Shown: piece by piece, positions 1 through 22,413 of the stretch
Position numbering within the stretch: the stretch's first letter is position 1
How the letters are laid out: the number at the start of each line of letters is the position of its first letter
Virus record (IMG/VR): IMGVR_UViG_3300042303_000041
Location: 134,648-168,097 of that record
Source of the DNA: a virus
Reading direction: 5' to 3' (one strand)
Length of the DNA: 33,450 bases
Notes under the pieces: generated by a model
What the model was told of the DNA's origin: nothing
The model's database searches: none
What the model saw: the letters and a program-made list of their open reading frames with translations, nothing else
Program-made: the position numbers and the translations under genes

Positions 1-378
1 ATAAATTTCCCAAGAACCATCCCATTTTGTCATTGCAGTACACACAGCGCTGCTTATTCTTAACCACATTGACATAGTCATACCGTTTTGACATAAACAA
101 TCTTTTAAAGTAGCACTGTTTGCTATATTAACAACATTGTTTGATGCTCCATCAGATCCTCCTAAATGTCTATCAAACATCATCCATTTTGTGTTTGTGT
201 CATATCCACTTACAGATCCTGCTGAAGGACCTGTAAAATTGCTCATAGTACCATGATTATTATTTCCGCTTATATCAAACCAAGTATTTCCAGTTCCTGG
301 ATAACTTTTAGAATTCATCGAATCTAATAATACCGTAAGTCCATTAGTAACAATTCCAGGACTATAATTAACTGCCAT
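1..378 (-). CDS. LamG/concanavalin-like tail adhesin, N-terminal part (3' end outside window)
   Basis: The frame is open from an ATG at 378 to the left window edge (126 codons, no stop), so only the N-terminus is present. The start MAVNYSPGIVTNGL, then LLDSMNSKSYPGTGNTW, then DISGNNNHGTM matches the opening of LamG/Laminin_G_3 (concanavalin-like jelly-roll) domains that are frequent in phage tail adhesins. A jelly-roll domain of this kind would bind a glycan or other surface ligand; that role is inferred. The stop TGA of the giant fibre shares its A with this ATG (TGATG), which implies translational coupling. A second in-frame ATG lies at 381, but the GGAG Shine-Dalgarno is better spaced for 378. 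Two cysteines in a DCLC motif are visible. It is probably a further tail or decoration adhesin; the ligand is unknown. Confidence 0.8.
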   Translation of the reverse strand, partial: MAVNYSPGIVTNGLTVLLDSMNSKSYPGTGNTWFDISGNNNHGTMSNFTGPSAGSVSGYDTNTKWMMFDRHLGGSDGASNNVVNIANSATLKDCLCQNGMTMSMWLRISSAVCTAMTKWDGSWEIY

Positions 379-716
379 CATTTCTCCAATAATTTATTTA
401 AAACACTCTCAAGGTTTGCTATGCGTTCTTCCAATGAAGCGATCTTAGCATCTTGACTCACTACTCTCTTAGCCAATTCAATGGCAGAAACTAAAGCAGC
501 ATTACCATAAGCTAAAGCTAGAGTACCGTCAGCGTTATCGCTAGTGACAACAACTTCTGGAAGTAGTTTTTGCCAATCTTGCGCACTCGCACCAGCTTGT
601 CGAACATTAGTATCTATACGAGTATAAGTACCAGATTTAACGTTAGCTAAATCTTCAACAAAAGTTTCTGGTAATGTATTCCAATCAGTTTTTAATCTTT
701 CGTCTGAGAAAGCTGT
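378..716 (-). other. Peptidase S74 self-cleaving chaperone domain of the giant fibre
   Basis: Residues 1741-1852 of the fibre. The TAFSDERLK motif supplies the Ser-Lys dyad (Ser1744, Lys1749), with the same five-residue spacing as Ser911/Lys916 of endosialidase NF. ASAQD replaces the more usual GVLAQD of the 727-aa fibre. The last 30 residues are heptad-like (IASLEERIANLESVL) and should form a trimeric coiled coil. Confidence 0.88.
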
Positions 717-3700
717 GACGTTACCCGCAGCAGTGAGGTTACCTGTGCTTGGTTGGAATGATATTTTTGTAGTAGATATTATAGTACCATCATTACCAGA
801 AGTAGCATCATGCATCGAAATATAATGCGTTGAAGTGCTTGTAGTATTGTCTGTTAACCCTACGTTGATTGCGTTGACGGCGGTGCTGGCGGTGGTGGCG
901 TTGGTGGCGGTACCAGCGGTAGCAGAAGATCCACTTACGTTGCCTGTTACGTTGCCTGTTAGTGGTCCATTAAAACCAGCAGCAAATACTGTGCCGCTGA
1001 CACCAACACCACCAGTTACTCTTAAAGTTCCTGTTGTGGTGCTGGTGGATGTGATGTTTGCACGAGCAAATACTTGACCAAGACTATCTATTTCAAGCCT
1101 AGATGTGTGCGTCTGTAATCCAGCCCCTGAGGTTGTTACACCAGATGTATAGAATCTCATTGTGCCGCCAACACCAGTGCCAGTACCTCGACCAGCAAAA
1201 AGCATTAAATCGGCACCAGCTATGTTAGTGCCCTTTGAATCGCCACTATAAAGTCTAGCTTGACCACCATCACCAAAAGCAGCAGTGCCTCCTGGTAGTG
1301 ACAAACTAGCACCAAAACCACCTGATGCAGAAGTATTATTACCACCAGAGATTGTTACAGCACCACCATTCTTGCCAGCTGTTGTAGAAGCTGAAGTTCC
1401 TCCAGTAACTGTTACAGCACCGCCAAAGCCGCTAGAAGAACTATTACCGCCTCTAAAAGAAATAGCACCAGCATCACCAGTGGCATCTGTACCAGTAGAT
1501 GCAGCTGGTGTAAATCCAAGAGCAGTTGTTACTTGACCAGATGTCAGAGTGAGTGTGCCACCTAAGGTAAGGTTGCCTGATCCAGTGACCGTACCAGTTA
1601 GTGTTAAACCGCTAACTGTTCCTGTGCCACCTACGCTAGTTACAGTACCTGTGTTGGTTGTGTAACCACTAGGGTTTGTTGCAGCATAGGCACCAATCTC
1701 AGCTAGTGTCCAAGAGACATCAGCGCTGTGGTCAACTGCCTTTCCAGTATTACCAATTGTTAATGTTCTAGAAGTAACAGTACTTGCTGTGCCTGATAAT
1801 GCGCCACTAAACGTAGTTGCATAAGCAACACCAGCTGCCATACGTAAAGTCCAATTACCAGCTTGATCTAAAAAGCCAATTTCATTACTAGTATTAGCAT
1901 ATACATATCCACGCAAAGCGCCTAGATGGCTTCCAGTATAAAGTCTTATGCCACTAAAGGTAGTTGTGCTAGACGCATCCCAATAACCATTAGTTTGAGA
2001 AGACCAATGTTGTGTTGTGTTTTCATTGTATAAGCCAGTATTATTGGCATTGTTTCTAAACCAATTATTAGCATATACTTGGTTAAATGACGGACTATCG
2101 CTAGTTCTAACTGCTTGATTTAAATAACTAGCAAATTGATAACCGTCCCACAAGTCTGCGTTAAGGTTTGGAACTACAGTTATTGATGATACCGTTAACG
2201 GAGCAGTTCCAGTTGCAACAGTAGAAACAAGAGTACTACCTTTAATAGAAGTACCTAAGATTGAACCGTTAACCTGTAGCTTATCAGTGCCATTATCTAT
2301 TCCACTACCCAATACTAAGTTACCAGAATACTGAGCGATTTTAACAAGACCTGTGTCAAGAACTTCAATGCTAGGTATACCCGAAACATCGTTGGCACTA
2401 AAGATAGTACCAGTCATTGAATCTGTTACAGAGAACAGCTGACCACTGGTACCAACAACTTCAAATGGTAATTGTGGAATTGATGTATCTGTTTCTCCAC
2501 CACCAACACGAATGCGTCTAGCAACAGTTAAGTAACCATTTGTAGTAAGCGCCATTGCGCCTTGGGATGTGTTGTGATTAGAATCGCCCCACCAAAAGCC
2601 ACGATCGTCTTCATCGTTAAACTGGAAAGTCATAGCATAATCGCTAAGACCACCATATTGAACATCTGCCTGCATGCCAATTGAATATAAATTGCTATCC
2701 CAAACTCTTAATTTATCTCGTGTACTGGCTGTACCAACAGATAATCCACCAGAGAATGTTGAATATGTACTAGTAGTAGCACCACGACCAGTTACACTTG
2801 ACAGCGTGTCTGTTTCAGAATACGAAGTTAGATAACTTACATTTGATCCACTAGTTACGTGACCTGTAGCATTAACTGTGACGTTATTGTAAGTTCCAGC
2901 TGTTACACCAGATGTAGCGTGGCTCAACGTCACTGCACCAGTAGATGCACTTGCCACTATTGGTGACGTAGCTGAAATAGAATCTACTTTAGTACCAGTT
3001 AAATATGTGCTAGTATCAATAGAATAAGTGTCTGCCGTTGCTGTTCGTCTAATGAATCCCGCACCAGCAGTAGCCATTAGTGTGGCAAGGTTTGTAAGTG
3101 CTGGACCTACAACTGCTTTAATAGTTCTATTGGTAGAAGTGTTTGCACTATACGCACCACTCAATTCAAGAGTGACGTCAGTATTAGTTGCGCCAGCAGT
3201 CTTAGTGGTAACAGAAAGAGTACCATCACCAACCGTAGGTTGAGATGCTGCAATTGTGTAGTCAGTACCACTTTGAGTTATTGTTACGTTTGAACCAGCA
3301 AGTAAAGTAAGATCACCTGAGTTATAAGTGCCTGATGCAGTTCCTCTTAAACGAGTAACCGTGTTCGTGTCGGTGTCGGTATCAGTCCAAGGTACGTTAA
3401 CAACCATCTGATTTGCAGAATTGAACTGAACGCCATATGTTCTAGAAGCTGTTGCTGAGACCGCATTGGCAGCAACGGTCTGCACTGTATCGCTGAATAG
3501 TTCTACTCCACCTAAAGCAGTTGACGTAGCTGTTGGTAAAGTATAAACAGTATCAGTCCAAGGTACATTTATTACACCTTGGCTAGCCGCATTTAGTTGA
3601 AGCCCATATGTTCTAGAAGCTGTTGCTGATACTGCGTTAGCTGCAACTGTTTGAGCTGTGTCACTAAACAATTCTACTAGACCAAGAGTTGTAGAAGTTG

Positions 3701-5936
3701 CGGCACTATATGTAGTGTTTGTGTCAACTACGGTTTCAGTACCAGTAGTATATGCAGTGACGTGACCGAATGTATCGAATGTTAAACCAGTTACATAAGT
3801 TCTTCCAGAAGCTGTTAAAGTTGCAGCACTCGAAGTATCAGTATGACTAAACTGTGTACCGTTTAAAGTTAATCCAGAACCAGCAGTGTATGTTCCAGCA
3901 CCAGAGAATTGGGAGAATACTACTCCAGTTGTGCCAACCGTAGTAACAGGGTCAGGCAGAACCCAACCAGTGTCGTTATACAGTGTACCTTGTTGAACGA
4001 ATGTAAAATCACCGCCGCCCATTTCGGCAGATGTATTGAAATCTTCAGCTCTTGTTAATACAGTGCTGCTTGTGTAAGTGTAAATACCATTGTGCGCAGT
4101 ATTGGCTTCAGCACGAACAAGGATTCGAGTTCCTACTGTTGCGATATTAACGCCATCGATAACACCATATGTTCCACCTGATACTGTGAGAGTTGCACCA
4201 ACTCCACTTGTTCCATTGGCATATGTTATTGTTCCGCCAGTAATAGAAGTTAGCGTTCCAGGAGTGGCTACAAGACTTGGTGCATGTACATGCAAACCTT
4301 GGGCGATACTATCTACGTATTGTTTTGTTACAGCATGTAGCGAACTTGTTGGGTCTGCATGCAAGGTTAAGAACCCTGTCATGGTATCACCAGCAGTGTT
4401 CACGAATCTTGAATCTGCTTCTGTCTCAGTATAGTATCTACCGTCAAGATCAAGTGACGTAATTGCAGTAATGTGCCCAAACGTATCAAGAGTGATATCC
4501 TGTATAACGTTACCGTTTGCATTATCTACAGAAGCCTGTGAAGACGTATCAGCATGGGCAAGACCAGATGCTTCTTGTACTAAACCGCTGCCTGCAGCAA
4601 CACTAAACACCGTGCCTGTAAGAGCTATACCGTCACCATCTGTATACGTAGTATTGGTATCAACCCAAGGTACGTTAACAACCATTTGATCAGCTGCATT
4701 AAGCTGAACTGCATATGAGCGAGATGCTGTTGCACTAACTGAGTTAGCTGCAACAGTTTGAACAGTGTCTGATCCTAATTCTACTAATCCTAGTGAAGTA
4801 GTAGTTGCTTTAGAATATGTTGTGTTAACAGATGTTATTGTAAAGTTTGGATAAGTGCCAGTAATTGACGTTGCACCAGCACCAGTTAGAGCAACTGTTT
4901 GATCTGGTGCACTATTGGTAATAGTTGGGTTTCCACTTACACCATCACCGTTTGAAATAGTAATTCCAGTGCTGGCAGTAAGAGTTCTACCAGCAAATGT
5001 ATCTGCGCCTGTGCGAGCTATAATACCATTCGTGGCAAGATTATGCAACGCTAATGCTTGACCAGTTAAACCTAATGTACCAGTGGTTGTGATTGTACCA
5101 CCAGTAATACCGTTATTAGTAGCAATTGATGTAACTGTACCAGTGTTAGATGTATAACCGCTAGGATTTGCTGCAGCATAAGCACCTAAATTCGTTAATG
5201 CAGCAGCTGCAGAAGTCGCACCAGTACCACCATTGGCGATAGCAACTGTTCCAGATACATTGGCTGCTGTACCTGATGTATTTTGATTTAACGTTGGTAC
5301 ATCTGCAGCTTGAATCGCTGACATAACAACGTCTGTTCCATCTCCACGCAAATATTGACCAGCAGTAACTGAACCCGCAAGGGCATCTATAGCAGCCTGT
5401 CGAGTTGTCTGACCAGTACCACCATTGGCGATAGCAACTGTTCCAGATACATTTGTTGCATTACCTGTTAATGCTCCAACAAACGTAGTTGAAGTTACAG
5501 AAGTTAAACCAGCAAGAGTTGTGGAGGTTGCACCAAGAGCGATAGCGGTAGAACCAACAGTAACGGAACTGTTTGCTAAGTTGGCGTTGGTTATTCCAGC
5601 AGTACCAGAAAGGTTGCTGTTAGTTAAACCGCTGATGGTGTTTGAACCAGCAGCGATTGTTTTGTTTGTTAGAGTTTGTGTGCCATCGAGTGTGACAACA
5701 GATGAGTTAATCGCAACTGTGACTGCAGAAGTTCCATTGTAGAAAGATCCAGATAAGCCAGTACCGATTGTTAGATTTGCTTGTGTTACATTGAACGACT
5801 TGATTGCGTTCGATGTATTTTTAAAATACAGTTTCTCATCAACATAGTTTAATGCTAACTCACCATATTCCAAATCTCCTGCGACTGGAACTTTAAGAGC
5901 CACAGAGGACTTCTTAAGGATAATTTTATTTGGCAT
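378..5936 (-). CDS. Giant tail fibre (1852 aa) with C-terminal S74 intramolecular chaperone
   Basis: Long tail fibre, presumably trimeric, that reaches for the host surface. The N-terminus (IILKKSS, then GDLEYGELALNY) is the anchor type seen at the start of many phage fibres and in Mtd-like proteins. The body is Ser/Thr/Gly/Ala-rich with repeats: two AIANGGTG linkers, three VELxSDTxQTVAAN units (about residues 377-427, 746-794, 801-851), a module of about 150 residues at 546-698 shared with the 700-aa fibre, two NPSGYTxNTGTVTS units, and a NNWFRNN module. Residues 1741-1852 are a Peptidase_S74 chaperone: TAFSDERLK with Ser1744 and Lys1749 five residues apart, SAQD, LLPEVV and LAYGNAALV, ending in a coiled coil. 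In this family the domain drives trimer folding and then cuts itself off at the Ser-Asp. The gene has its own TATAAATA box and an AGGA ribosome site. Confidence 0.92.
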   Translation of the reverse strand: MPNKIILKKSSVALKVPVAGDLEYGELALNYVDEKLYFKNTSNAIKSFNVTQANLTIGTGLSGSFYNGTSAVTVAINSSVVTLDGTQTLTNKTIAAGSNTISGLTNSNLSGTAGITNANLANSSVTVGSTAIALGATSTTLAGLTSVTSTTFVGALTGNATNVSGTVAIANGGTGQTTRQAAIDALAGSVTAGQYLRGDGTDVVMSAIQAADVPTLNQNTSGTAANVSGTVAIANGGTGATSAAAALTNLGAYAAANPSGYTSNTGTVTSIATNNGITGGTITTTGTLGLTGQALALHNLATNGIIARTGADTFAGRTLTASTGITISNGDGVSGNPTITNSAPDQTVALTGAGATSITGTYPNFTITSVNTTYSKATTTSLGLVELGSDTVQTVAANSVSATASRSYAVQLNAADQMVVNVPWVDTNTTYTDGDGIALTGTVFSVAAGSGLVQEASGLAHADTSSQASVDNANGNVIQDITLDTFGHITAITSLDLDGRYYTETEADSRFVNTAGDTMTGFLTLHADPTSSLHAVTKQYVDSIAQGLHVHAPSLVATPGTLTSITGGTITYANGTSGVGATLTVSGGTYGVIDGVNIATVGTRILVRAEANTAHNGIYTYTSSTVLTRAEDFNTSAEMGGGDFTFVQQGTLYNDTGWVLPDPVTTVGTTGVVFSQFSGAGTYTAGSGLTLNGTQFSHTDTSSAATLTASGRTYVTGLTFDTFGHVTAYTTGTETVVDTNTTYSAATSTTLGLVELFSDTAQTVAANAVSATASRTYGLQLNAASQGVINVPWTDTVYTLPTATSTALGGVELFSDTVQTVAANAVSATASRTYGVQFNSANQMVVNVPWTDTDTDTNTVTRLRGTASGTYNSGDLTLLAGSNVTITQSGTDYTIAASQPTVGDGTLSVTTKTAGATNTDVTLELSGAYSANTSTNRTIKAVVGPALTNLATLMATAGAGFIRRTATADTYSIDTSTYLTGTKVDSISATSPIVASASTGAVTLSHATSGVTAGTYNNVTVNATGHVTSGSNVSYLTSYSETDTLSSVTGRGATTSTYSTFSGGLSVGTASTRDKLRVWDSNLYSIGMQADVQYGGLSDYAMTFQFNDEDDRGFWWGDSNHNTSQGAMALTTNGYLTVARRIRVGGGETDTSIPQLPFEVVGTSGQLFSVTDSMTGTIFSANDVSGIPSIEVLDTGLVKIAQYSGNLVLGSGIDNGTDKLQVNGSILGTSIKGSTLVSTVATGTAPLTVSSITVVPNLNADLWDGYQFASYLNQAVRTSDSPSFNQVYANNWFRNNANNTGLYNENTTQHWSSQTNGYWDASSTTTFSGIRLYTGSHLGALRGYVYANTSNEIGFLDQAGNWTLRMAAGVAYATTFSGALSGTASTVTSRTLTIGNTGKAVDHSADVSWTLAEIGAYAATNPSGYTTNTGTVTSVGGTGTVSGLTLTGTVTGSGNLTLGGTLTLTSGQVTTALGFTPAASTGTDATGDAGAISFRGGNSSSSGFGGAVTVTGGTSASTTAGKNGGAVTISGGNNTSASGGFGASLSLPGGTAAFGDGGQARLYSGDSKGTNIAGADLMLFAGRGTGTGVGGTMRFYTSGVTTSGAGLQTHTSRLEIDSLGQVFARANITSTSTTTGTLRVTGGVGVSGTVFAAGFNGPLTGNVTGNVSGSSATAGTATNATTASTAVNAINVGLTDNTTSTSTHYISMHDATSGNDGTIISTTKISFQPSTGNLTAAGNVTAFSDERLKTDWNTLPETFVEDLANVKSGTYTRIDTNVRQAGASAQDWQKLLPEVVVTSDNADGTLALAYGNAALVSAIELAKRVVSQDAKIASLEERIANLESVLNKLLEK
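3386..4808 (-). repeat. Three 50-residue fibre repeats (VELxSDTxQTVAANxVSATASR)
   Basis: Copies lie at about 4656-4808, 3556-3700 and 3386-3537. Each encodes TSLGLVELxSDT, VQTVAANxVSATASR and a closing QMVVNVPWxDT or GVINVPWTDT. The second and third copies share an exact 26-bp stretch around 3431 and 3604 (starting ccatatgttctagaagc). Known fibres carry this unit as a shaft element; here it appears three times at unequal spacing. Confidence 0.85.
5220..5453 (-). repeat. Perfect 42-bp direct repeat in the giant fibre gene
   Basis: Bases 5220-5261 and 5412-5453 are identical and 192 bases apart in register. They encode the VSGTVAIANGGTG linker twice, near the N-terminus of the 1852-aa fibre. 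This is long enough to serve homologous recombination or slippage within the shaft. Confidence 0.9.
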
Positions 5937-6010: not shown

Positions 6011-8113
6011 TTAATATGTGCCACCATCAATGTTGAAACCGTCCAATGTTGATATAGCTGCGCCAGCGCCGTAGATACTTCCACCGACACCAACACCACC
6101 AGTTACAATAACAGCACCAGTTGTAGAACTTGAAGAAGCAGTAGCTGCCGTAAAGGTTGTAGCACCATTAGAAGTTAGTGTAGTAAATGCACCAGTAGAT
6201 GCAGTAGCGGCACCAATTGTAGCATTATTAATACTTCCACCATTAACTGTAGGAGAAGTAAGAGTTTTGTTCGTAAAGGTCTCTGTACCATCTAAAGTAG
6301 CAAGAGTACCTGTAGTTGGTAATGTTATTGAAGTAGTGGCAGTAGTAGTTAGAGATAAACTATGCGCACCAATGTGAGCGAAATTACCACCTAATGTTAT
6401 GGTCTTACTACCGTTATTAACACCAGTACCACCATATGTTGGTCCAACTAATGTACCCTGCCATACACCAGTAGCAATAGTACCAAGAGTTGTGATTGAT
6501 GTTTGACCAACGTAAGTTGATGCAATATCTACACTATCAATACCAACAGTAATACGATCTGCTGTACCATTAACATTAAACTCTGTTCCTGAAATGGTTA
6601 AACCAGCACCAGCAGTAAATGTTCCAGTACCAGAGAACTGTTGCCAGATGACAATATCTACACCAACAGTTAGTACTTCTTCTGTTTGTACCCAACCAGT
6701 ATTTCCGTAAAGAGTACCATTTTCTACGAAAGTAAAGTCACCACCAGCCATTTCGGCAGCAGCATTAAAGTCATCAGAACGAGTAAGAACTGTCGCACTA
6801 GTGCGAACATACATACCGTTGTGTGCTTGATTTGCTTGATTTTTAACAAGGATTCGATCACCATCAGTTAATGTGTGTCCATCAATCGCTGCTATACCAG
6901 CAGAAAGAGTAAGAGTAGCACCAACACCTGCAGTTCCATTAGCATATGTTACTGTACCACCAGAAAGAACAGCAAGAGTATCAGTAGTTGCACAATGTGC
7001 AGCTTCATGTATATGTAAACCTTCAGCAACAGTATCAACATAACTCTTTGTTGCCGCATCAGATGCATTTACAGGCTCAGCAATACCAGTAATAATAGAA
7101 CCAGCAACATCAACTCTACCAGTACCATTTGGGGATAAAATAATATCACCATTGTTATCTGTAGATGTAATTGTATTACCATTAAAGTTTAAATTATCAA
7201 CTGCTAATTCAGTAATACCAGCAATAGCAGTGGTAGTGGAACCATTGGTTAGTGTTGAAGAACCTAATGTAATAGTCTTAGTAGAAACTGCACCACTAGT
7301 AACTGTAAAGTTATTGGTGTCAAACGAAGCAACACCTTTATTAGTAGTAGTAGCATCTTCTGCTGCAATAGTGATAGTATTTGTACCTGCATTGATACTA
7401 GTATCAATACCTTCACCACCAATGAATGACAGTGTATCTGTTGCAAGAGCAATAGAGTCTGTACCAGAATCAGAAGCAATACCAAGAGTAGTAGTAATTG
7501 ATGCTGTTGTTACAGCAGTTAATTGACCTTGTGCATTAAAGGTAATAACTGGAATAGCCGTAGAAGAACCAACAGCAGTTCCTGCACCAGTAACTGTAGT
7601 ATTAGTTATAGAAACTGTAGAGGTATTAGTGCCATCATTGTTAGTGATAGTGATACCAGTGCCACCAGTAACTGCTCCACCAACTGTGTCATAAATAAAT
7701 TCCGCAATGCTAGTATTTGCATCGTTAATGTGCAAATTAGTAATAACAGTCTTACCAGTACCATTTGGAGTGATTGCCAGATCACCATTAGTATTTGTGG
7801 TACTTAGTGTACTACCATTAAGTTGTAGATCGTCAACTAATAAATCATCAATCTTCTTATTAGAATCTACCAATAAAGCAGAGGTAGCAGTTAGAGTGCC
7901 TGGTGTGTGATCTAATAAATCAGTAAAGTACTTACCACCAATAACTGATATGTTTGCAGCAATTCCACTGGTTTCGTTTCCATGTCCAATGTATAGTCTG
8001 TCGCCTCCATTATTAACTGTACCTGTACCGTATGTATATCCTAATTCACCGTTGGATAATCCACTTGGTGCGCCAGTGTTTGGTGATCTTTTAATTCTAA
8101 TTATTGATGCCAT
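6011..8113 (-). CDS. Tail fibre, 700 aa, no S74 chaperone
   Basis: Fibre-type structural protein. The N-terminus (IIRIKRSPNTGAPSGLSNGELGY) is the same anchor class as the giant fibre. Two copies of a unit ending NGDxxxxPNGTG follow. Residues about 364-515 hold a module (AATKSYVD just before it, then GLHIH, DRILVKNQAN, HNGMY, DFNAAAEMAGGDFTF, NTGWV) that is clearly paralogous to residues 546-698 of the 1852-aa fibre. Residues about 542-618 (TGVWQGTLVGPTYGGTG to TLATLDGTETFTNK) match the 727-aa fibre. The C-terminal STTGAVIVTGGVGVGGS motif precedes S74 domains in many fibres, but here the protein stops soon after, at GFNIDGGTY, with no chaperone. The ribosome site is GGAG. It may be a short side fibre or one needing a separate chaperone; either is inference. 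Confidence 0.9.
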   Translation of the reverse strand: MASIIRIKRSPNTGAPSGLSNGELGYTYGTGTVNNGGDRLYIGHGNETSGIAANISVIGGKYFTDLLDHTPGTLTATSALLVDSNKKIDDLLVDDLQLNGSTLSTTNTNGDLAITPNGTGKTVITNLHINDANTSIAEFIYDTVGGAVTGGTGITITNNDGTNTSTVSITNTTVTGAGTAVGSSTAIPVITFNAQGQLTAVTTASITTTLGIASDSGTDSIALATDTLSFIGGEGIDTSINAGTNTITIAAEDATTTNKGVASFDTNNFTVTSGAVSTKTITLGSSTLTNGSTTTAIAGITELAVDNLNFNGNTITSTDNNGDIILSPNGTGRVDVAGSIITGIAEPVNASDAATKSYVDTVAEGLHIHEAAHCATTDTLAVLSGGTVTYANGTAGVGATLTLSAGIAAIDGHTLTDGDRILVKNQANQAHNGMYVRTSATVLTRSDDFNAAAEMAGGDFTFVENGTLYGNTGWVQTEEVLTVGVDIVIWQQFSGTGTFTAGAGLTISGTEFNVNGTADRITVGIDSVDIASTYVGQTSITTLGTIATGVWQGTLVGPTYGGTGVNNGSKTITLGGNFAHIGAHSLSLTTTATTSITLPTTGTLATLDGTETFTNKTLTSPTVNGGSINNATIGAATASTGAFTTLTSNGATTFTAATASSSSTTGAVIVTGGVGVGGSIYGAGAAISTLDGFNIDGGTY

Positions 8114-8697: not shown

Positions 8698-8976
8698 TTA
8701 TTTTATTTTATTTTCAAGATCTTTAACTTTTGCATGCAGTTCTTTAATAGCTTCAAAGATCAATCCAGCAAAGTTTCCATAAGCAACAGACATGTACGGA
8801 CCAGTAGCATCTACAACTTCTGGTAAAACTTTAATAGCATCCTGAGCCAAGACACCAGTCTGACGCTCACCACTATCAGTTCTAGTATAGGTATATCCAG
8901 TTAGCTGTTCTACCTTGGCCAATGCATCAGTGATAACGTTTAAGCTGCTCTTAAGTCTAGCATCCGAGAATGCAGT
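8698..8976 (-). other. Peptidase S74 chaperone domain of the 727-aa fibre
   Basis: Residues 636-727. Ser639 and Lys644 form the expected dyad in FSDARLK; GVLAQD, VLPEVV and VAYGNFAGL are the standard S74 signatures. The end (LHAKVKDLENKIK) is a short coiled coil. By family knowledge the domain folds the trimer and is then released at the Ser-Asp bond. Confidence 0.93.
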
Positions 8977-10881
8977 AACGTTTCCAGAAACAGTAAGAGC
9001 ACCAGTATCTGTTAATTGCAGAATAGCAGCATTATATGCATGGTTCATAACCTGCAGTGTACTAAGGTACGCTCTTATAGTTTTATTAGGACCAGGCTGT
9101 CCTGGTCCTACCGCTTCATTACCAATTAATCTAATATTAGCACCATTAATGCCACTGTCATTTACGTCCAATGTTGCCATCTCACCTGAAAACACATTAG
9201 GTACGTAGGGTGCTCCACCGTAGCCCGACGTAGTTATCACCACCCCTGTACTAAATGCCTTATTAGAGAATGTTTCACTACCATCTAATGTAGCAAGAGT
9301 ACCTGTAGTTGGTAGTGTTACTGCGGTATTACCAGTAGTAGTTAGACTTAGTGTATGTGCACCACTGTGCGTGAAGTTACCACCTAAAGTGATAGTCTTA
9401 GTGCCGTTGTTAACACCAGTGCCACCGTATGTTGGTCCAACTACTGTGCCCTGCCAAGTGCCTGTTCCAATAGTTCCAACCGAAGTTAGAGAAGAACCAG
9501 TAACACCAGAGCCAAGAGTGGTTGCACTTAGAACTGATGTTCCATTAATCTTATAAACTTTACTAGTAACAAGATTTAGATCTTCTGATGAGGTCCATGC
9601 AGTAGAAGCACTAAGCCAGCTAAATGTCTTATCTGTCGCACCCTTAAGTGTAATACCACCATTGTTGGCAGTGGCGTCAGTGACACCACCAACATTAAAA
9701 GTAATCGATCCTAAAGTCGCATGATTAACAGATGCAGTGAATTGAGTTAAACTTTCAATACTAGCAATTACAGGGCTTGCACCAAATGCACCAGCGCCAG
9801 ATGTTTTAGTTAATGCTTGCCCAGGGATTAATCCTGCAGTTGTTCCTGTAGTTAGTGTAACAAGTACAGTTCCAGTTGCTAGTGTTGCAACCAACCCTGT
9901 TACTGCAGTCACTGAGCCTAGTTCAATATTCTTATCATCTACTGCAACAGTAGAAGAATTTATTGTTGTGGTAGTTCCATTGACGGTTAAGTTTCCATTA
10001 ATGGTCAAGTCACCTGTTTTTGTTTGTGAACTTGCGCTGGTATCTAAGTAGTAACTACCATTTTGACCATCTAATAGATCAGCATCTAGACCAGATCCAG
10101 CACCATCAACTAATTTAATCTTTTCTAAAACATCGGCTGGTGAGTAAGCTGGTGGTAGATCTATACCCAATAAGGTAACTGAGCCAGAAGTAGAACTTGT
10201 AGGTGCTATCCAATTTGGTGCTGTTGTGTTAGTAGTTCCTGCAGTAGTCACCTGATAGTATCTAGTTACACGCTTGACAACACCAGAACCAATACCAGAA
10301 CCTGCTGATGTTGCTGTAAATACAGTTCCATCAAAGTTGCTTGGTGCTCCAGCAGTAGTAGTAGCAGATGTTCTGAAAACAGAGATCCCAGATGGAGTTC
10401 CTGCAGTAGTAGTAATTGCTGCACCGCCAACAGTTGCAGAAAGAGTAAACGAGGTAGTTCCGTTTGTTGCAGTGATGTAATAAACGTTTATTTCAGTATT
10501 GGAGTATCCTGTGATAGAACCAGTACCATTATTAAAACCTCTAATGTTAATAGCTTGACCAACAGAAAGTGAGGCAGAAGCACATGTAAAAGTTCCGCCA
10601 GTACCAGTTATAACTACACTAGTTAATGCTTGAGCAAAGGCAGATGTTATAACATAATTAACGCCAACTTTTAAGAAACCAAGACTTTCTGCGCCACCTC
10701 CAGGATACGCATTTTCATGAGTATATAATATTTGTCCTAATGTGTATGCTGTACTTGGAGCCCATGGCACAGCATTAGAAACTGCAAGTGTAGTGTCTCT
10801 TTGCAACGACGTAAAGTTGTTGTCTATCTGAGTGTTTGTCAGACCAAATGAAAGAGCTGTTCTAAGATTTAACTGTGCCAT
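8698..10881 (-). CDS. Tail fibre with S74 chaperone, built from shared modules (727 aa)
   Basis: Fibre for host contact. The N-terminal SFGLTNTQIDNNFTSLQ is an anchor of the same class as in the 664-aa fibre. Residues 40-55 (WAPSTAYTLGQILYTH) and 207-224 (RYYQVTTAGTTNTTAPNW) look like the two halves of a carbohydrate-binding-like module, separated by about 150 residues. Residues 89-170 match the tip of the gp7-like protein. AVDDKNIELG at 313-322 and TDATANNGGITLKGATDKTF at 401-420 are halves of a standard marine-phage fibre module, split by about 76 residues. Residues 470-539 match the 700-aa fibre. The S74 chaperone covers 636-727 (FSDARLK with Ser639 and Lys644, GVLAQD, LPEVV, VAYGNFAGLIFEAIKEL). 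The ribosome site is weak (AAAGAA). Confidence 0.92.
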   Translation of the reverse strand: MAQLNLRTALSFGLTNTQIDNNFTSLQRDTTLAVSNAVPWAPSTAYTLGQILYTHENAYPGGGAESLGFLKVGVNYVITSAFAQALTSVVITGTGGTFTCASASLSVGQAINIRGFNNGTGSITGYSNTEINVYYITATNGTTSFTLSATVGGAAITTTAGTPSGISVFRTSATTTAGAPSNFDGTVFTATSAGSGIGSGVVKRVTRYYQVTTAGTTNTTAPNWIAPTSSTSGSVTLLGIDLPPAYSPADVLEKIKLVDGAGSGLDADLLDGQNGSYYLDTSASSQTKTGDLTINGNLTVNGTTTTINSSTVAVDDKNIELGSVTAVTGLVATLATGTVLVTLTTGTTAGLIPGQALTKTSGAGAFGASPVIASIESLTQFTASVNHATLGSITFNVGGVTDATANNGGITLKGATDKTFSWLSASTAWTSSEDLNLVTSKVYKINGTSVLSATTLGSGVTGSSLTSVGTIGTGTWQGTVVGPTYGGTGVNNGTKTITLGGNFTHSGAHTLSLTTTGNTAVTLPTTGTLATLDGSETFSNKAFSTGVVITTSGYGGAPYVPNVFSGEMATLDVNDSGINGANIRLIGNEAVGPGQPGPNKTIRAYLSTLQVMNHAYNAAILQLTDTGALTVSGNVTAFSDARLKSSLNVITDALAKVEQLTGYTYTRTDSGERQTGVLAQDAIKVLPEVVDATGPYMSVAYGNFAGLIFEAIKELHAKVKDLENKIK

Positions 10882-14577: not shown

Positions 14578-17500
14578 TTAAGCAAGAGCAATTATTCGCA
14601 GATCTGAAATTCTAGGTATTTGTGTAGAATCAGTCGAGGTCATAACAAGTTTAATTGTTATGGCATCAAAAGAAGGTAAGTCATCTAGATCAATCTCGTG
14701 TTCAAAGAATGATGAGTCTTTACTCTTTAGATTTGCAGGAACTGTTGTTCTGGCATTTTCATATTCTACAAAGTTAAAGTCTGTTTCAGTTCCAGATGGA
14801 TTTAATTTGTAGTATACTCCAATATTTGCTGCTGGTGGAACGTCAGCATCAAATTTAATCTTAACTGATGTGCATGGGTTTGCAAATTTTAGTTTACGAG
14901 TAACATATTTGTTAATGCTGGAACTGCCAACTGGTGTTCGCTCAGAGAAGAAACGATCCAATGCTTTAATAGTAATAGGCTCGGATGCTGCCTTGGCATT
15001 CAATACACCCTGAATAGTTAATGATTTTCCTTCTGGGTCAACATCAGTCACAAACCATGTTCCATTATTTTGAGTAACGCCAGAACCAGAAATTACAATA
15101 TACTGTCCAGAAATTATACCAGAAATAGCTTCATATAAAGCTGAATCTTGCACAACCATAACACCAGTACCATCAAACACAATTCCTTGATCTGCAGAAA
15201 CTACTTCTATGTAATCAATAGGATCGATATTCATAGAGGTGGATGGGTTGTTTGTCTTATTAGACACCGCAGTGATAGCCACGTTTTCAATATTAATAAT
15301 AGGTGACACATCTGGATTTGATGTGATTAGTTCTGCATTAATAATCGCTGTATTTCTTAAAGATGTCAATGTAGATAAATTCAAATCTTTCGCAACAGAG
15401 TTTTCCTTAGAAGCAATAACCATTGGAACTGGAGTATAGTTATCCTCACCAGGAGTGATACTAAAGGTGTTTGTATATGGTAGGTTAGCCTGTAAGAATG
15501 TTTGGTAAGGAGTTTGCGCTCCGTCCATGCTCTTTCCTGTAACACCCTGATATGTAATAATGCTATTAGTTCCAGTATAATTTTCAATGTTTATAGATGG
15601 ATTAAACATATCATATGGAACGTCTCTAGATGCTAGTACACCATCGCCACCACGTTCACCAGTTACGTTAGGAATATCACCAACAGAGAACACAATAGCG
15701 CCATTAGTAGTTGGGGCTGCACTTAACACGAATGTACTAGAGTTTGTTATAGAAGCAACTGTAGTGCTGTCAGCAAAGACTCCAGTGCCGCTTGTCTTTA
15801 TAACTGGTTGTCCAACAAACATATTAGAAGTATCGCCAGTAGATAGTGTAACTGATGTGGTAGAAGTATTTAAAGTTGTCTGTAAATTTTCGCTACCAAT
15901 AGTGATAACATAACTATCAAGCTCAACAGAATCTATATTATGATTTAGATAGTTTCCGTTGCTATCCAACTTAAAGATCTCATTAGGAGAAACACCATTT
16001 AATGGGTTCATGAATCTAAATGGCTCAGTGTTTGATATAATACCATAGTTAGAGTTTGATGTGCTTTTTAGAGTAAGCTGAGTATCGCTGGCGACAGATA
16101 AAACTTCGCCGATAACTTTGCCATCTTCTCTGTAGATAACAGCGCCTGGAACAATTGCGTTTGTAGTTGCAAACTTTGTACCAATACCTGAAACGATTGC
16201 AGAATTCTTTGCACTATAAATTTCACCAATTGCTACAGGTGGTAGTGCTTTAATAGCTACAACAGATTCTGTATTCATGCCATGGTTGTCGTGCGAAACT
16301 CTAACCTTTCTAGAACCTGCTGTGAATAGCAAAGGATTGTTCTGTAGACTAGAATCTGGAACATTAGCATTTTCAAACGCTACGCTACCTACAGTATTAG
16401 TTGTAAATGCAGCTTTGTTTAGTTTGAACTTCATATCTGTCATTTGCTCTGCTGTCCAAGTAGAAGCATTTTGCGACTTGAAGAAAACACCCATATATGG
16501 CTGCTTGTCGATCTGTCCACCATTCTCTTTAGATAACTCGCCTTGTTTAGCAACAAAGACTTCGGGAACATCAGAGTTAGACAATAGAACTAAACAGTAT
16601 TCAGTATTACCATTTAAATACGTAGGTGATGGGAACTTGATATTGGTCGCCAAGCTAGAATTGTCAGAAGTTTTAATTTCTGAGGCTGCAATCTGAGTTT
16701 TAGATGTTGTTAGTACAGTCTTACCTGGATATCCATTAACAACTTCTCTGATCTCAATCATAACTGGAGCAGAAACATCTTTCTTATAGAAGTATAAGTC
16801 TACAGATGTTACAAATACACCATTGGTCTCTTGAACCAAGAATGTCTGAGCTAGTGGGTCATACCATCCAGGTGAGTTTGAGAATCTAGTTTCTGTTGTT
16901 TTATCGATGTCGCTATCACTAACTTGTCTTGTTGCCAACTCACCATTGCGGATTCGTTGAATCTGATTTTGTCTTTCTTGGTAAATACCACTGGCAGTAA
17001 ATGCCTTTGTAGCAGATGACGTAGATGACTTTTTATCATATGTTTCAAAGTCTAGTAATGCAAGCTCGTTTGAACCTGTGTTGAATTTAACAGCAGTCGT
17101 GTTCGGCACATAGAATATAAAGTTTAAAGATCCCTGTAAAGAAGTTCTTAATTCACCACCTGCACGAGTAGTTGTTGCAGAAACAACAGCACCTTCAGCT
17201 TCGCTCAATGTACCCTTTATAACATTACCTGCAACGAAACCAGTAGTAGTAGCATTAACTGGATATTTTCTATTAACTACATATACAGCAAATTTTCCTG
17301 CATCTGGACCTGCATCATATTTTTCCCATCCAACAACTATAGCTGTAACACCAGTTGCAACAGTACCTGCTGAATTATACTCAATTAGAACATCACCAAC
17401 GCTGATAGATAAATCTGTAGAGTCGCCTGCAAATAATCTTGCAGTTTCAGAATAATTATTACCTGCACGGCTAACAGTATCAAAAATAGAGGACTTGCCA

Positions 17501-20500
17501 GTTCTTGCATTAAATATAATCTTTTCTGCAGGAGTGCAATACTCTTGTATGTTTCTTCCATCAAAGAATGGATAGAATACGGTATCACCCTTTAGACCCT
17601 TTGTCTGAACTGTCAAACGACGAGATCTCATATATGGAAGAATAGTAGTACTTAAAATCTTATCTTCTAAGACTCTTTCATCATAGATAGTCTTCACATA
17701 AGTTTCTGTTCCTTTTCTTGACTTAGGCACAGAAACTTGAACAGTAGAAACTGTAAATGACTGACTATTGACACCCCATCCACCAGCAAACCCACCACCA
17801 CCTACCGAGTATGCAGCGTATGTTTGTGAACTTGTAGTCTTTTCTGAACGACCTGCCCAATTCTTTTCCCAAGAACCCCATATAGTACCAAGTACACCTG
17901 CTTTCTCAGCAAGATTCTTAATAGTATTATAGTTACCTTCTTTTTCTTCAACAATAATATCTGGGCGACGCTTAACTTCAAACCATGTGTCACTTGCTGG
18001 AGTTATAGTCATGTTACCCAAGAATGTAAAGAACGCAAATGGGTTAATTTTTTCACTAGATGAAGATCTCACCTGTTCAATATACGTGGTTTCTGTAAAT
18101 GGTAATGTAATATACTTACCAGTCAAAGCATAGTTACGTGCAGTTCTATCGTTAGTTGATGATGCTACTTCTACGAATGGAATTTGGTCTTGGACAAAGA
18201 ATGGACGTAACATTCTAGATTCAAAATCAATAGAATTTAGATAATCTGGATTTGTAGTATCTCCAATGGCATGACCAGTAAAGTTATCTACAACAAAACC
18301 ATTTTTAAATTTCTCAAGACCATCAGCATCGCGTATCGTTAAATTCTGAGTTTCAGATTCAAGTAATGATAGAGATGTATAATATTCTAGGTTGTTAATT
18401 CTTTGCTCTAACTTACCAATATCAGCCATTGTATAACGTTTATTATCTACACCCTTAATCAAGATATTTGTAGAAGAAGTGCCGAACGTGTATGGTTGCA
18501 GTTGAATATCATACAACAAAACGTTGTCACTAATTTCTGGTGCTGCTGGTTGATTGACAAGTGTAGATACACCTTCGCTGATAGTAACTTTACCGTTACG
18601 ATCCATAAAGACTTTACACTTCTTGCCAAGATAATATTCTAGATCAAGAACCATGTCTGTGCCAAATTTAGGCATTAATGTTTCATCGTCTGTGAACACG
18701 ACAGCGCCTGTAAAGTTATCTGTTACTTTAGGTCTAAAGTCAATACAGTCTGCCAAGGCAAATCCGTTGTACACTGGAATTGTCTGGTAAGGAATACCAT
18801 CATATGATTTAACTGAGAAAAAGTCTCCAGATCCACTATGCTCATAATGCTCAAATACTATTCTAATAGGTGCTGTAGGTTTTGACTTACCATCCTTCAA
18901 TTGAATGAAAGAAATTCCATAGTATGAATCAGTTTGGTTTGTTATAAAGTTAAATCTATCTGTAATATTTGTGGTATATTGTCCAGATGGCTGACCCCAT
19001 GATCCAGTATCCATATTGACACTAACTATTCGAATACCATCAGCTTTACCTGTGTAGATAGCGTTAGATTCTCCAATAGATTTAGAAGTAACTGTATGCG
19101 TTACGCTCTTTAGAGTTTTGATCTTAGGGCTAGTAGTAACAGATGCATCTAATGTAGTTTGTATAACTACTTGTTGTCCGTTGTTAGAACCTAGTCCAGT
19201 GAATTCTATGGTAGTATTGTTATTAGAACGTGTTGCTCCAGAATATGTAAGATTCTGACCAGTTGCTCTGCTTACTAATTGATAAGACCCAATAGCTAAT
19301 GGATTTGCGAATTGGTATGGAGTATCGCAAGAAACAGCAACAGAGCCAGAAGCTATTGTGCCAATATACGTTCTTGTTGATGTGTATCTAACATCAGAAA
19401 CATTCTTGATTACAGGATATGGAAGTTTAAATATCAAGCTAGTTGCACCAGCATTGACAAGAGGACGGTACGCCTTTTCTATCTTTACACCTGATGTAGT
19501 GTTTCTTGTAAATATGTGAGCAGTTCCTGTGCCTACTGCAGTTATATCCATTTTACCAAGTGACCCACCAGTTTCTGCTCCAGTACGAGAATTATACAGA
19601 ACAAAAGAGTTTGGTGTTGGTGATGCACTAGTTCCTGCATAAACAAAGTAAGATCCACCGTCAACTAAGCCACCAATAGCATTAGCATCAAAAGATAGAG
19701 ATGATGTCTTTGTAACTACAGCATCCGCCATAGTCATAGAAGTAACTACAGTGTTAAGTGTAACTGTCATAGATCCTGATGCAGTATTCGCAAACACTAC
19801 AGCTGTACCACCACTAGAAGTAGAAATTGTAATCTTTTTCGCAGCAGTATCAATAGATCTAATAAAGTATGTAGTAGCTGCCAGCCCACCAAAAGCTGTA
19901 CCACTTAGTGTAATAGTATTACCCACTGCCATGCCAGCAACACTAGAAACAACTACAAAGTTTGTAGTCTTTTCTACACCAGTTGCTGTAGTAGTAACTG
20001 CAGTGATATCAAACTCTGTACCACCACTAGAAGTAGAAATTGTAGCAACATTAGCTGCAAGAGTTTTAATGAAGTAGTTAGTACCTGCTACAATACTGCC
20101 AAAAGTCGTGCCTGCAAAAGTTACTTTATCGTTAACAGCAATGTTAGTTGCATCAGAAAGAACAATAGTATTTGTAGAAGGAACGATACTGGTTACAGTT
20201 TTGGTTACTTCTGCTGTTAGATCAAGTGTTGCGCCACTAGGGGTTTCAGAGATAGTGAACGTTGTTCCGTTTGGAACAGTTTTCACATAGTAAGATTTAT
20301 TGGCTGAAATTCCAGCAATATTTGCACCGAATTTAATAACCTTTCCAGCACTTAACCCTGTAGTTGATGGAACTGTAATTACATCAGTTGTAGTATCTAC
20401 AGAAATAGAATCACCAGAAGAAGTTGAGATGGTACCAGCGTCATAGCTAACTTCAACGCCAGTGCTAAATCCATGAGCAGTTGAAGAAATCACATCAGTG

Positions 20501-22374
20501 CTAGTATTAACCACGCTTGCACTGGAAGCATCTATTACAATTGATGTTGTTCCTGCCACGTTCGTGTTAAGAGTCATAGCAGTGTTTGAAACTACAGTCT
20601 GCACTCTAGAATAGGTACCATTAATGTAAACATATTCACCAGCTTCATATTCTGTTAAGAATGATGTTCCTGTGCCAAATATAGATTTACCACTAATTAT
20701 AACTGTTCCTGAAGTTTGAACTGCATTTAATGCCAGATCAGCGGTGAATGTTGCTGATGTAGAAGCCGCAGGGATAACAATTTGTTTAATTCTGTTTGTG
20801 ATAGAATATCTTCTACCATTACCACTTGGAACCAAATCCATAACTACATTAAACAAGAACACTTTGTATCTTGCTTGTGAAGTACCCATAGCCCCTGATT
20901 CATATTCAATGGCTCTGATTCTAGCAGTTCCACGCTTGAGACCAGAAGATACGCCTAATGTTACTGTAGGATCTTCATAAAGTAGAACTTCAGGATATGT
21001 AGAAACGTCTGGGAATGAGTTTAGATTTTGAACAACAATATATTGCCCAAGATCAGTAGAAAACTGTAAGTCTTGGTCATTGCTAGTAGCTCTTGCCTTT
21101 AATAGTGGCGTATAGAATGTTGCTTTGGTTTCTACTTCATATCCAAAAATATAACCTTTACCAGCACCAAGACCGACAGCTAATTTAGCCTCGTCAGCCT
21201 CATGTTGGGTTGTAGTTGTATATGTAGTTGATGCAGTATAGACACCATTGTTATATGGAGGAACTGAGACTTCCTGCCACACAACAATACCAGTAGAACC
21301 AGCAGTGCTTCTTGGAGTTGTGTTTGAGTCTGAGAATCCAGTATTTAATGCACGATAGAAATTTTTAACACCACCAGCTGTTGTGTGCGCAACGATATCA
21401 TTTGCTAGATATGGTTTGTTTACAACATATGTTCCACGATCATTATTGCGGAACTCTTTAATGTTGATTGGGAAATTTTTAACTACGTAATTTCCAGACT
21501 CATCATATGTTCTGCGTGCCAGCGTGTGTTCTAATTCATTATAAAGAGTCTTGTTCACCAAATACTCTATGTTACCATTTTTGACTCTAAGAATTTCAAT
21601 AAAGTTAGTACCCTCACCAATCGTGAAATCATAAGACTTTTTAACAAGGTTTAAAGAAATAGTATAACGATGAGCGCCAGGAGCAGAATAGTTAAATGAC
21701 CCAGCAGCATTGTCTAATAAAGTCTCATCTTCTTCTGGTGTGACTGTATCTTCTACAATCTCTAGACAAATCTTTGCAGTAGGTGTTTTTGAGTATTTGT
21801 CGATAACGATTGTTTGGGCGTCAACTAAAACAAAGTTCTTCTTTACATAGAATACACCCTGCTGTATTGTAGCTCCAGAACTAACACCAGTAGCAGCACT
21901 AGACTGAACTGTTACACTAACGCCAGTTTCTTCAGACACTAAAGTTTCTGCAGCAGCAAACACTTTAGTTGTTCCATTAGTTCCAGAGTTAATATACTTA
22001 ACATAAACCATTGACGGATCGGCTGAGGTCTTAGTTGTATATGTTAAAACCTTTGCTCGCACACCTGTAGTCTGTCCAACTAAGATGTTACCGACTAACG
22101 CTGGTAAAAATCCATCCGTACCAGAAGTTCCAACTGTTGCTGTTAATTTAACATAAGAAAGCGCATTATCGAATCCAATTTCACCTGGAATGATAACAGA
22201 ACCTTCTTTAAATAAGTGGTCGCCGACTCTAGAGATTTGCGACTGCAGAATACTTTGAAGTTGATTTAGCTCTCTTGCTTGTACACCGTAACCAGGACGG
22301 AATAATATCTTTAAGAACTTCTTGTTTTCGTCAAAATCATCATAGTATGGTTCTGCATTGAAGTTGATTGTCAT
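14578..22374 (-). CDS. vrlC: Giant VrlC/DUF4815-type baseplate-tail protein (2598 aa)
   Basis: The largest gene of the window. The N-terminus (NAEPYYDDFDENKKFLKILF, then RPGYGVQARELNQLQSIL and GDHLFKEGSVI) is the DUF4815 start found in large tail proteins of many phages; the WYDPLAQTFLV and GVFVTSVDLYFYKKD motifs near residues 1838-1868 and IEIREVVNGYPGKTVL are those of VrlC-like proteins of T4-type marine phages. Residues about 615-960 are five degenerate repeats of about 72 residues. Residues about 2162-2232 hold a module shared with the 727-aa fibre. The remainder is beta-rich with no catalytic motif. It stands where T4 encodes gp9-gp11, so it may be the baseplate periphery to which fibres attach; this is inferred. 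The start has AAGAAGG upstream and a TATAAATA box 32 bases before the ATG. Confidence 0.9.
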   Translation of the reverse strand: MTINFNAEPYYDDFDENKKFLKILFRPGYGVQARELNQLQSILQSQISRVGDHLFKEGSVIIPGEIGFDNALSYVKLTATVGTSGTDGFLPALVGNILVGQTTGVRAKVLTYTTKTSADPSMVYVKYINSGTNGTTKVFAAAETLVSEETGVSVTVQSSAATGVSSGATIQQGVFYVKKNFVLVDAQTIVIDKYSKTPTAKICLEIVEDTVTPEEDETLLDNAAGSFNYSAPGAHRYTISLNLVKKSYDFTIGEGTNFIEILRVKNGNIEYLVNKTLYNELEHTLARRTYDESGNYVVKNFPINIKEFRNNDRGTYVVNKPYLANDIVAHTTAGGVKNFYRALNTGFSDSNTTPRSTAGSTGIVVWQEVSVPPYNNGVYTASTTYTTTTQHEADEAKLAVGLGAGKGYIFGYEVETKATFYTPLLKARATSNDQDLQFSTDLGQYIVVQNLNSFPDVSTYPEVLLYEDPTVTLGVSSGLKRGTARIRAIEYESGAMGTSQARYKVFLFNVVMDLVPSGNGRRYSITNRIKQIVIPAASTSATFTADLALNAVQTSGTVIISGKSIFGTGTSFLTEYEAGEYVYINGTYSRVQTVVSNTAMTLNTNVAGTTSIVIDASSASVVNTSTDVISSTAHGFSTGVEVSYDAGTISTSSGDSISVDTTTDVITVPSTTGLSAGKVIKFGANIAGISANKSYYVKTVPNGTTFTISETPSGATLDLTAEVTKTVTSIVPSTNTIVLSDATNIAVNDKVTFAGTTFGSIVAGTNYFIKTLAANVATISTSSGGTEFDITAVTTTATGVEKTTNFVVVSSVAGMAVGNTITLSGTAFGGLAATTYFIRSIDTAAKKITISTSSGGTAVVFANTASGSMTVTLNTVVTSMTMADAVVTKTSSLSFDANAIGGLVDGGSYFVYAGTSASPTPNSFVLYNSRTGAETGGSLGKMDITAVGTGTAHIFTRNTTSGVKIEKAYRPLVNAGATSLIFKLPYPVIKNVSDVRYTSTRTYIGTIASGSVAVSCDTPYQFANPLAIGSYQLVSRATGQNLTYSGATRSNNNTTIEFTGLGSNNGQQVVIQTTLDASVTTSPKIKTLKSVTHTVTSKSIGESNAIYTGKADGIRIVSVNMDTGSWGQPSGQYTTNITDRFNFITNQTDSYYGISFIQLKDGKSKPTAPIRIVFEHYEHSGSGDFFSVKSYDGIPYQTIPVYNGFALADCIDFRPKVTDNFTGAVVFTDDETLMPKFGTDMVLDLEYYLGKKCKVFMDRNGKVTISEGVSTLVNQPAAPEISDNVLLYDIQLQPYTFGTSSTNILIKGVDNKRYTMADIGKLEQRINNLEYYTSLSLLESETQNLTIRDADGLEKFKNGFVVDNFTGHAIGDTTNPDYLNSIDFESRMLRPFFVQDQIPFVEVASSTNDRTARNYALTGKYITLPFTETTYIEQVRSSSSEKINPFAFFTFLGNMTITPASDTWFEVKRRPDIIVEEKEGNYNTIKNLAEKAGVLGTIWGSWEKNWAGRSEKTTSSQTYAAYSVGGGGFAGGWGVNSQSFTVSTVQVSVPKSRKGTETYVKTIYDERVLEDKILSTTILPYMRSRRLTVQTKGLKGDTVFYPFFDGRNIQEYCTPAEKIIFNARTGKSSIFDTVSRAGNNYSETARLFAGDSTDLSISVGDVLIEYNSAGTVATGVTAIVVGWEKYDAGPDAGKFAVYVVNRKYPVNATTTGFVAGNVIKGTLSEAEGAVVSATTTRAGGELRTSLQGSLNFIFYVPNTTAVKFNTGSNELALLDFETYDKKSSTSSATKAFTASGIYQERQNQIQRIRNGELATRQVSDSDIDKTTETRFSNSPGWYDPLAQTFLVQETNGVFVTSVDLYFYKKDVSAPVMIEIREVVNGYPGKTVLTTSKTQIAASEIKTSDNSSLATNIKFPSPTYLNGNTEYCLVLLSNSDVPEVFVAKQGELSKENGGQIDKQPYMGVFFKSQNASTWTAEQMTDMKFKLNKAAFTTNTVGSVAFENANVPDSSLQNNPLLFTAGSRKVRVSHDNHGMNTESVVAIKALPPVAIGEIYSAKNSAIVSGIGTKFATTNAIVPGAVIYREDGKVIGEVLSVASDTQLTLKSTSNSNYGIISNTEPFRFMNPLNGVSPNEIFKLDSNGNYLNHNIDSVELDSYVITIGSENLQTTLNTSTTSVTLSTGDTSNMFVGQPVIKTSGTGVFADSTTVASITNSSTFVLSAAPTTNGAIVFSVGDIPNVTGERGGDGVLASRDVPYDMFNPSINIENYTGTNSIITYQGVTGKSMDGAQTPYQTFLQANLPYTNTFSITPGEDNYTPVPMVIASKENSVAKDLNLSTLTSLRNTAIINAELITSNPDVSPIINIENVAITAVSNKTNNPSTSMNIDPIDYIEVVSADQGIVFDGTGVMVVQDSALYEAISGIISGQYIVISGSGVTQNNGTWFVTDVDPEGKSLTIQGVLNAKAASEPITIKALDRFFSERTPVGSSSINKYVTRKLKFANPCTSVKIKFDADVPPAANIGVYYKLNPSGTETDFNFVEYENARTTVPANLKSKDSSFFEHEIDLDDLPSFDAITIKLVMTSTDSTQIPRISDLRIIALA
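19500..20530 (-). repeat. Five degenerate 72-residue tandem repeats in the VrlC-like protein
   Basis: Units follow the pattern (ST)xxVIxVxxxxGxxxGxxxxFxGxxxxGLxxGxxYFVxxxxxxxFxIS, and the last ends MDITAVGTGTAHIFT. Two neighbouring units share an exact 29-bp stretch (19803-19831 and 20016-20044) encoding TISTSSGGT. One copy of the same unit sits inside the gp8-like protein (residues about 629-713). The first unit begins with AHGFSTGVEVSY, matching NHGFQTGAAVVY in gp8. Confidence 0.8.
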
Positions 22375-22405: not shown

Positions 22406-22413
22406 TATTTATA
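22406..22413 (-). promoter_or_regulatory. T4-type late promoter box TATAAATA before the VrlC-like gene
   Basis: A perfect TATAAATA on the minus strand, 22413 to 22406, overlapping the TAA stop of the gp8-like gene. The VrlC-like ATG lies at 22374 with AAGAAGG in front, so a late transcript starting near 22400 would carry a leader of about 26 bases. Position in the only sizeable gap of this region supports function. Confidence 0.65.

Follow-up and report, generated by a model that had tools for sequence, protein, structure and literature searches.

A probable mobile all-beta module in a phage tail fibre and in other virion proteins

Genomic Setting of the Tail Fibre Gene

The window, by which we mean the whole stretch of 33,450 nucleotides analyzed here, forms the end (positions 134,648–168,097) of a 168-kb IMG/VR virus record. 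Its minus strand carries a T4-like structural block comprising a gp6-like baseplate wedge protein (29078–30910, minus strand), two further baseplate proteins and a series of fibre-like proteins. One of these is a 727-aa tail fibre (P0001; 8698–10881, minus strand), recognized from its open reading frame and translation together with PHROG matches to tail fibre and virion structural families. It has a C-terminal Peptidase_S74 chaperone (residues 639–690; 8812–8967, minus strand; Pfam PF13884, E 9.7e-13), which identifies it as an S74-chaperone tail fibre. The block also includes a 2598-aa VrlC-like protein with a DUF4815 domain (P0002; 14578–22374, minus strand; Pfam PF16075, E 3.2e-57; phrog_358).

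In the middle of the 727-aa fibre, a module recognizable by alignment with its relatives is split in two. The upstream part (residues 283–322; 9916–10035, minus strand) ends in the motif VDDKNIELG at residues 314–322, and the downstream part (residues 401–450; 9532–9681, minus strand) starts from TDATANNGGITLKG, with TDATANNGG beginning at residue 401. The 78 residues between them (323–400; 9682–9915, minus strand) constitute an insert, delimited by a gap in relatives that lack it and by membership in a family defined by a hidden Markov model (HMM). The initial annotation had proposed a 76-residue insert at 9685–9912; we confirm that this interval encodes residues 324–399 of the reading frame, and each of its borders lies no more than one residue from ours. 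A folded core of six strands is predicted for residues 327–397 (9691–9903, minus strand) in an AlphaFold2 model of residues 285–456.

Other segments also recur among the structural proteins of the window. Residues ~81–158 of the fibre (10408–10641) have a counterpart towards the C terminus of the 907-aa baseplate protein (26442–26801), both having the pattern TGTxGTFTC ... GTGSITGY (Smith-Waterman scores of 131–134); this is a second module common to two structural genes. The fibre-like proteins at 8698–10881, 6011–8113 and 378–5936 have long segments in common, with scores of up to 282, and the pattern GTWQGTxVGPTYGGTGVNNGxKTITLGGNF is found in both the 727-aa and the 700-aa fibre-like proteins. 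The 1151-aa baseplate protein (22409–25864; P0007 from about residue 641) shares a segment with the VrlC-like protein (14578–22374; score 111), and beta modules of the AHGF/NHGFxTG type occur in both. The 907-aa baseplate protein (26358–29081) is internally repetitive, containing LLTSFDDPTLLDSVSGRVKGSFKTYLF twice and a NEFPATDPNPAFTSILQ-like unit three times.

Empty and Filled Sites in Three Virion Proteins

A scan with the fibre module from which the insert had been left out returned 80 loci. The two motifs are separated by 10–11 residues (SVASPTDVTAD and similar spacers) in 44 distinct copies and by an insert of 74–96 residues in 13 fibre-site copies, counts that come from pattern-based, query-dependent scans and represent neither a census nor frequencies in nature. 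In the fibre of the window the motif spacing is 84 as against 11 in the empty form, a net gain of 73 residues, and when the fibre is aligned with its relatives the difference appears as a single uninterrupted gap, located between SV and TD. The suggestion that other fibres do without the insert is thus borne out, most of the sampled homologs of the VDDKNIELG module lacking it. Among named phages, the fibre site is empty in S-CBS2 and AG-345-D19 and filled in the cyanophages S-WAM2 (AOV61889.1), S-RIM44, S-PM2, ACG-2014h and Sf-CH11. In these five the homologous insert, of similar length, occupies the same site between VDDK..EL and GGG(I/L); it belongs to diverged subtypes, and the proteins are annotated as virion structural, tail-fibre-like or hypothetical, with the insert not named in the records consulted.

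The module appears to sit in a loop of the VDDKNIELG module, an assignment made because the spacer of empty relatives, 11 residues in most of them, is short and rich in G, P, T and D. The picture of one domain invading another at a loop is accordingly upheld for the insertion itself, the loop being the likely setting as judged from that spacer.

Besides inserts of the KTSGxGAFG type, the fibre site also holds diverged subtypes of the IPANTTVTAV type and the GSLGGSGSYIVTSI type. These were seen in four further records (L154, 2420–2941; L150, 3086–3613; L155, 2423–2977; L158, 2420–2974), as if different versions filled one loop.

Empty and filled forms of a site were likewise found in two other proteins. 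The VrlC-like protein carries a second copy of the module at residues 2163–2234 (15673–15888, minus strand), a site that is filled in the window and in two other records (L212 and L213) and empty in S-BM3, Pelagibacter phage Mosig, BUCT-ZZ01 and Pseudomonas phage pf16, whose sequences align with the flanks on both sides. The third host is a small protein whose sequence starts with MALWSNTD, in which one record (L016) is filled and eleven distinct relatives have a short turn (DAQGNTR or similar) instead; the MALWSNTD protein of P-SSM2 is also empty at this position. The same site therefore exists with and without the domain in the fibre, VrlC-like and MALWSNTD proteins, as is expected of a mobile domain. 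Empty relatives were also sought for host proteins of 256 aa and 251 aa, and none was found.

Relationship Between the Fibre and VrlC-Like Copies

In a BLASTP comparison among the nine proteins of the window, the fibre insert and residues 2163–2234 of the VrlC-like protein are 43% identical over 72 residues (E 2.5e-7). Fibre proteins in the window have a biased composition and produce numerous weak cross-matches, so that chance or convergence among beta sequences rich in T, G, S and A might be invoked for such a similarity. We regard this as exceedingly unlikely. The insert has a Smith-Waterman score of 140 against the VrlC-like protein, whereas 500 composition-preserving shuffles average 66 and never exceed 88, which rules out chance and composition as the source of the match at the sequence level; the reversed insert scores 53. 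Profiles built from seven fibre-site copies and three VrlC copies align over 69 ungapped columns with a probability of 98.1% and an E value of 1.2e-13 (hhalign), and the two copies have the motif KTSGxGxF in common and identical strand spacing. The homology between the insert and VrlC-like residues ~2162–2232 that the initial annotation had recognized is hence backed by pairwise identity, shuffling and a significant profile similarity, all in agreement.

A Module Family Spread Over Many Phage Proteins

An HMM of eleven copies finds a match in every one of the 21 records tried, with two or three matches in some, and places the module in about a dozen phage protein contexts whose host families differ, that is, in nonhomologous hosts. 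Apart from the three proteins described above, these include a fibre with an Mtd_N domain (L012), proteins of 251 aa (L005), 256 aa (L103) and 477 aa (L106), a fibre combining collagen and a carbohydrate-binding module (CBM; L164), and other proteins. Two copies are present in each of two further hosts, an 1871-aa protein (L101), where they are in tandem, and a minor-tail-like protein (L105). For most contexts other than the fibre, VrlC-like and MALWSNTD proteins, the matches establish the presence of the module rather than its insertion. KTSGxGxFG, a loop motif, is conserved from one context to another. Among the hosts are virion-surface proteins of the fibre, minor tail and collagen/CBM kinds, while several others carry no functional assignment. 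Since the VrlC-like copy, too, is an insertion, and about a dozen contexts hold members of the family, the VrlC-like protein is one more acceptor, neither a special partner nor an obvious donor.

The diverged cyanophage subtype is linked to the family through the fibre-site profile (probability 97.5%, E 5e-12); against the VrlC profile alone the link is weak (8%). In one filled fibre (L102), residues ~639–697 of a 1114-aa reading frame contain an additional segment, GIKVGATISGNANIPGGATVTAI, which is similar to the diverged subtype and falls below HMM significance.

Sequence searches of Pfam, NCBIfam and the PDB returned no family or match that recognizes the module; in Pfam-A, nothing matched the eleven copies at E values up to 1 or the diverged modules at E values up to 10. 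PHROGs 6005 and 6002 do include it inside much longer profiles. Used alone as a tblastn query against named phages, the insert had no match, relatives being found only with longer or diverged queries. A consensus scan of bacterial and archaeal genomes, a kind of pattern scan that misses diverged copies, found no relative. The 168-kb record contains a third weak match (E 0.04), which is partial, includes a stop and was taken as chance.

Predicted Fold

The AlphaFold2 model of fibre residues 285–456, based on an input alignment of 58 rows, has a mean pLDDT of 92.6, with insert block means mostly of 95–98 and six strands within the insert. In the model of the VrlC segment only the insert is confident, the flanks not being modelled confidently. 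The structural comparison proposed in the initial annotation gives the same relative strand starts (0, 13, 29, 44, 53 and 64) for both copies, in models that are not independent of each other since their alignments share rows. The insert is thus predicted to be a compact, self-folding, six-stranded all-beta domain of ~72 residues, the prediction of a confident beta fold holding even where the flanks are not modelled.

A Foldseek search of solved structures returned no match with an E value below 0.05. The best resemblance is to chain 1 of 8eci from Arthrobacter phage Bridgette (probability 1.00, rmsd 2.8 Å over 81 columns), and the phi92 endosialidase (4hiz_B; E 0.13, probability 0.87, rmsd 4.9 Å) and ubiquitin-activating enzyme E1 (6o83 and others; E 0.16 or higher, probability ~0.8) were also matched. 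Foldseek gives no target coordinates; on our reading, the E1 match corresponds to the FCCH half-domain (E1_FCCH, Pfam PF16190) and the endosialidase match to its beta-barrel domain (PF12195). Neither of these two family profiles matches the module in Pfam, and a literature search on FCCH and phage yielded nothing relevant. In all three proteins the resemblance would be to small beta-barrel domains, none of them related to the module in sequence. Among predicted viral structures, the fibre of S-WAM2 ranks first (E 1.7e-12), ahead of other phage proteins.

History and Selection

Among all copies of the module, the inserts at the fibre site fail to group as a single clade (AU p = 0.0095), and at least eight changes between fibre and other contexts are needed, in trees of 81 columns that have few strongly supported branches. 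The history of the domain thus differs from that of its hosts, and the module has repeatedly passed from one context to another, the trees showing that such moves took place rather than how many there were or which way they went. The tree of the fibre flanks requires at least seven changes, and a single clade of filled fibre sites has an AU p of 0.0675; this tree is unrooted and gives no direction of change, and filling of the fibre site in just one event is neither demonstrated nor rejected. The three VrlC copies group together as a clade (98/87), away from the fibre copy of the window, which rules out that either of the two genes recently gained its copy from the other by duplication. The two copies in the window are independent, each being nearest to copies in other phages. 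The insert is under purifying selection somewhat looser than that on its host, with dN/dS values of 0.27 for the fibre copy and 0.20 for the VrlC-like copy, compared with 0.11–0.17 for the fibre flanks.

Interpretation

We consider it highly probable that residues 323–400 are a self-folding all-beta domain belonging to a widely shuffled family of virion modules, a related member of which entered a loop of the VrlC-like protein in a separate event. Such a domain would move between phages by ordinary recombination, either illegitimate or guided by short homology, and its insertion would be tolerated if, as seems likely, its two ends lie close together. Three copies would be displayed on each fibre trimer as a side-facing decoration, which may add weak contact with glycans of the cell surface or the environment, as has been proposed for the Ig-like domains of phages. 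We give this adhesive role an even chance. A broader view, in which the family, inserting promiscuously into loops, is the aquatic-phage counterpart of the Ig-like domains found elsewhere and the VDDKNIELG loop is a standing site where each phage may place its own subtype and so vary its surface properties, is tentative and falls slightly short of even.

Two other readings of the insert deserve weight. It could be a neutral, spacer-like beta domain that is stable enough to be tolerated in loops and lengthens or stiffens proteins, binding nothing. That very different host proteins carry the module, that its dN/dS is looser than that of the flanks (as given above) and that many relatives do without it would all fit this reading; set against them are the persistence of purifying selection and the conservation of KTSGxGxFG across contexts, though folding alone could account for both. 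On balance we judge a spacer unlikely, while taking it seriously. Alternatively, the insert could be ancestral to the VDDKNIELG module, in which case empty copies would represent repeated loss and this fibre would never have been invaded. The filled sites of diverse cyanophages with their diverged subtypes are compatible with such a history, as is a flank tree that is neither rooted nor directional. It is nevertheless improbable, more so than a spacer, given that the empty state is the commoner one in our sample, that the module occurs in unrelated proteins having empty relatives, which shows that insertion happens, and that the fibre-site inserts are not one clade. The reading we prefer remains that of a mobile module, and the failure of fibre-site inserts to form one clade leads us to conclude that it moved between contexts several times.

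Ig-like domains occur on several kinds of virion protein and have been proposed to bind surfaces weakly. BACON domains are also carried on phage proteins (PMC6949934), and both resemble the module in being small beta domains found in such a setting. The Ig and BACON models of Pfam give no match to it, no Ig-fold protein is among the 50 Foldseek matches listed, and sequence-profile matches to immunoglobulin chains reach E values of only 1–2. Domain mosaicism is established for phage receptor-binding and tail proteins (Smug et al. 2023; PMC10684548). The part of that study considered here describes homologous fragments, of up to >50% identity, common to otherwise unrelated virion proteins including tail fibres, and the same is seen with this module. 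Its approach, in that part, relies on domain presence and common fragments, whereas here one domain is traced to internal loops through empty and filled versions of a site. Domain shuffling in phages is hence already known; the module is a new and unnamed example of it in which the empty and filled sites are unusually clean.

The occurrence of both states of a site in three unrelated virion proteins is exceptionally clear evidence that small domains move between phage proteins within loops and not only via the exchange of protein ends. The absence of the family from Pfam and NCBIfam, as searched here, means that annotation misses the module, including in the isolated cyanophage S-PM2. With its borders and relatives described, the module provides a defined unit for asking what such fibre decorations do.
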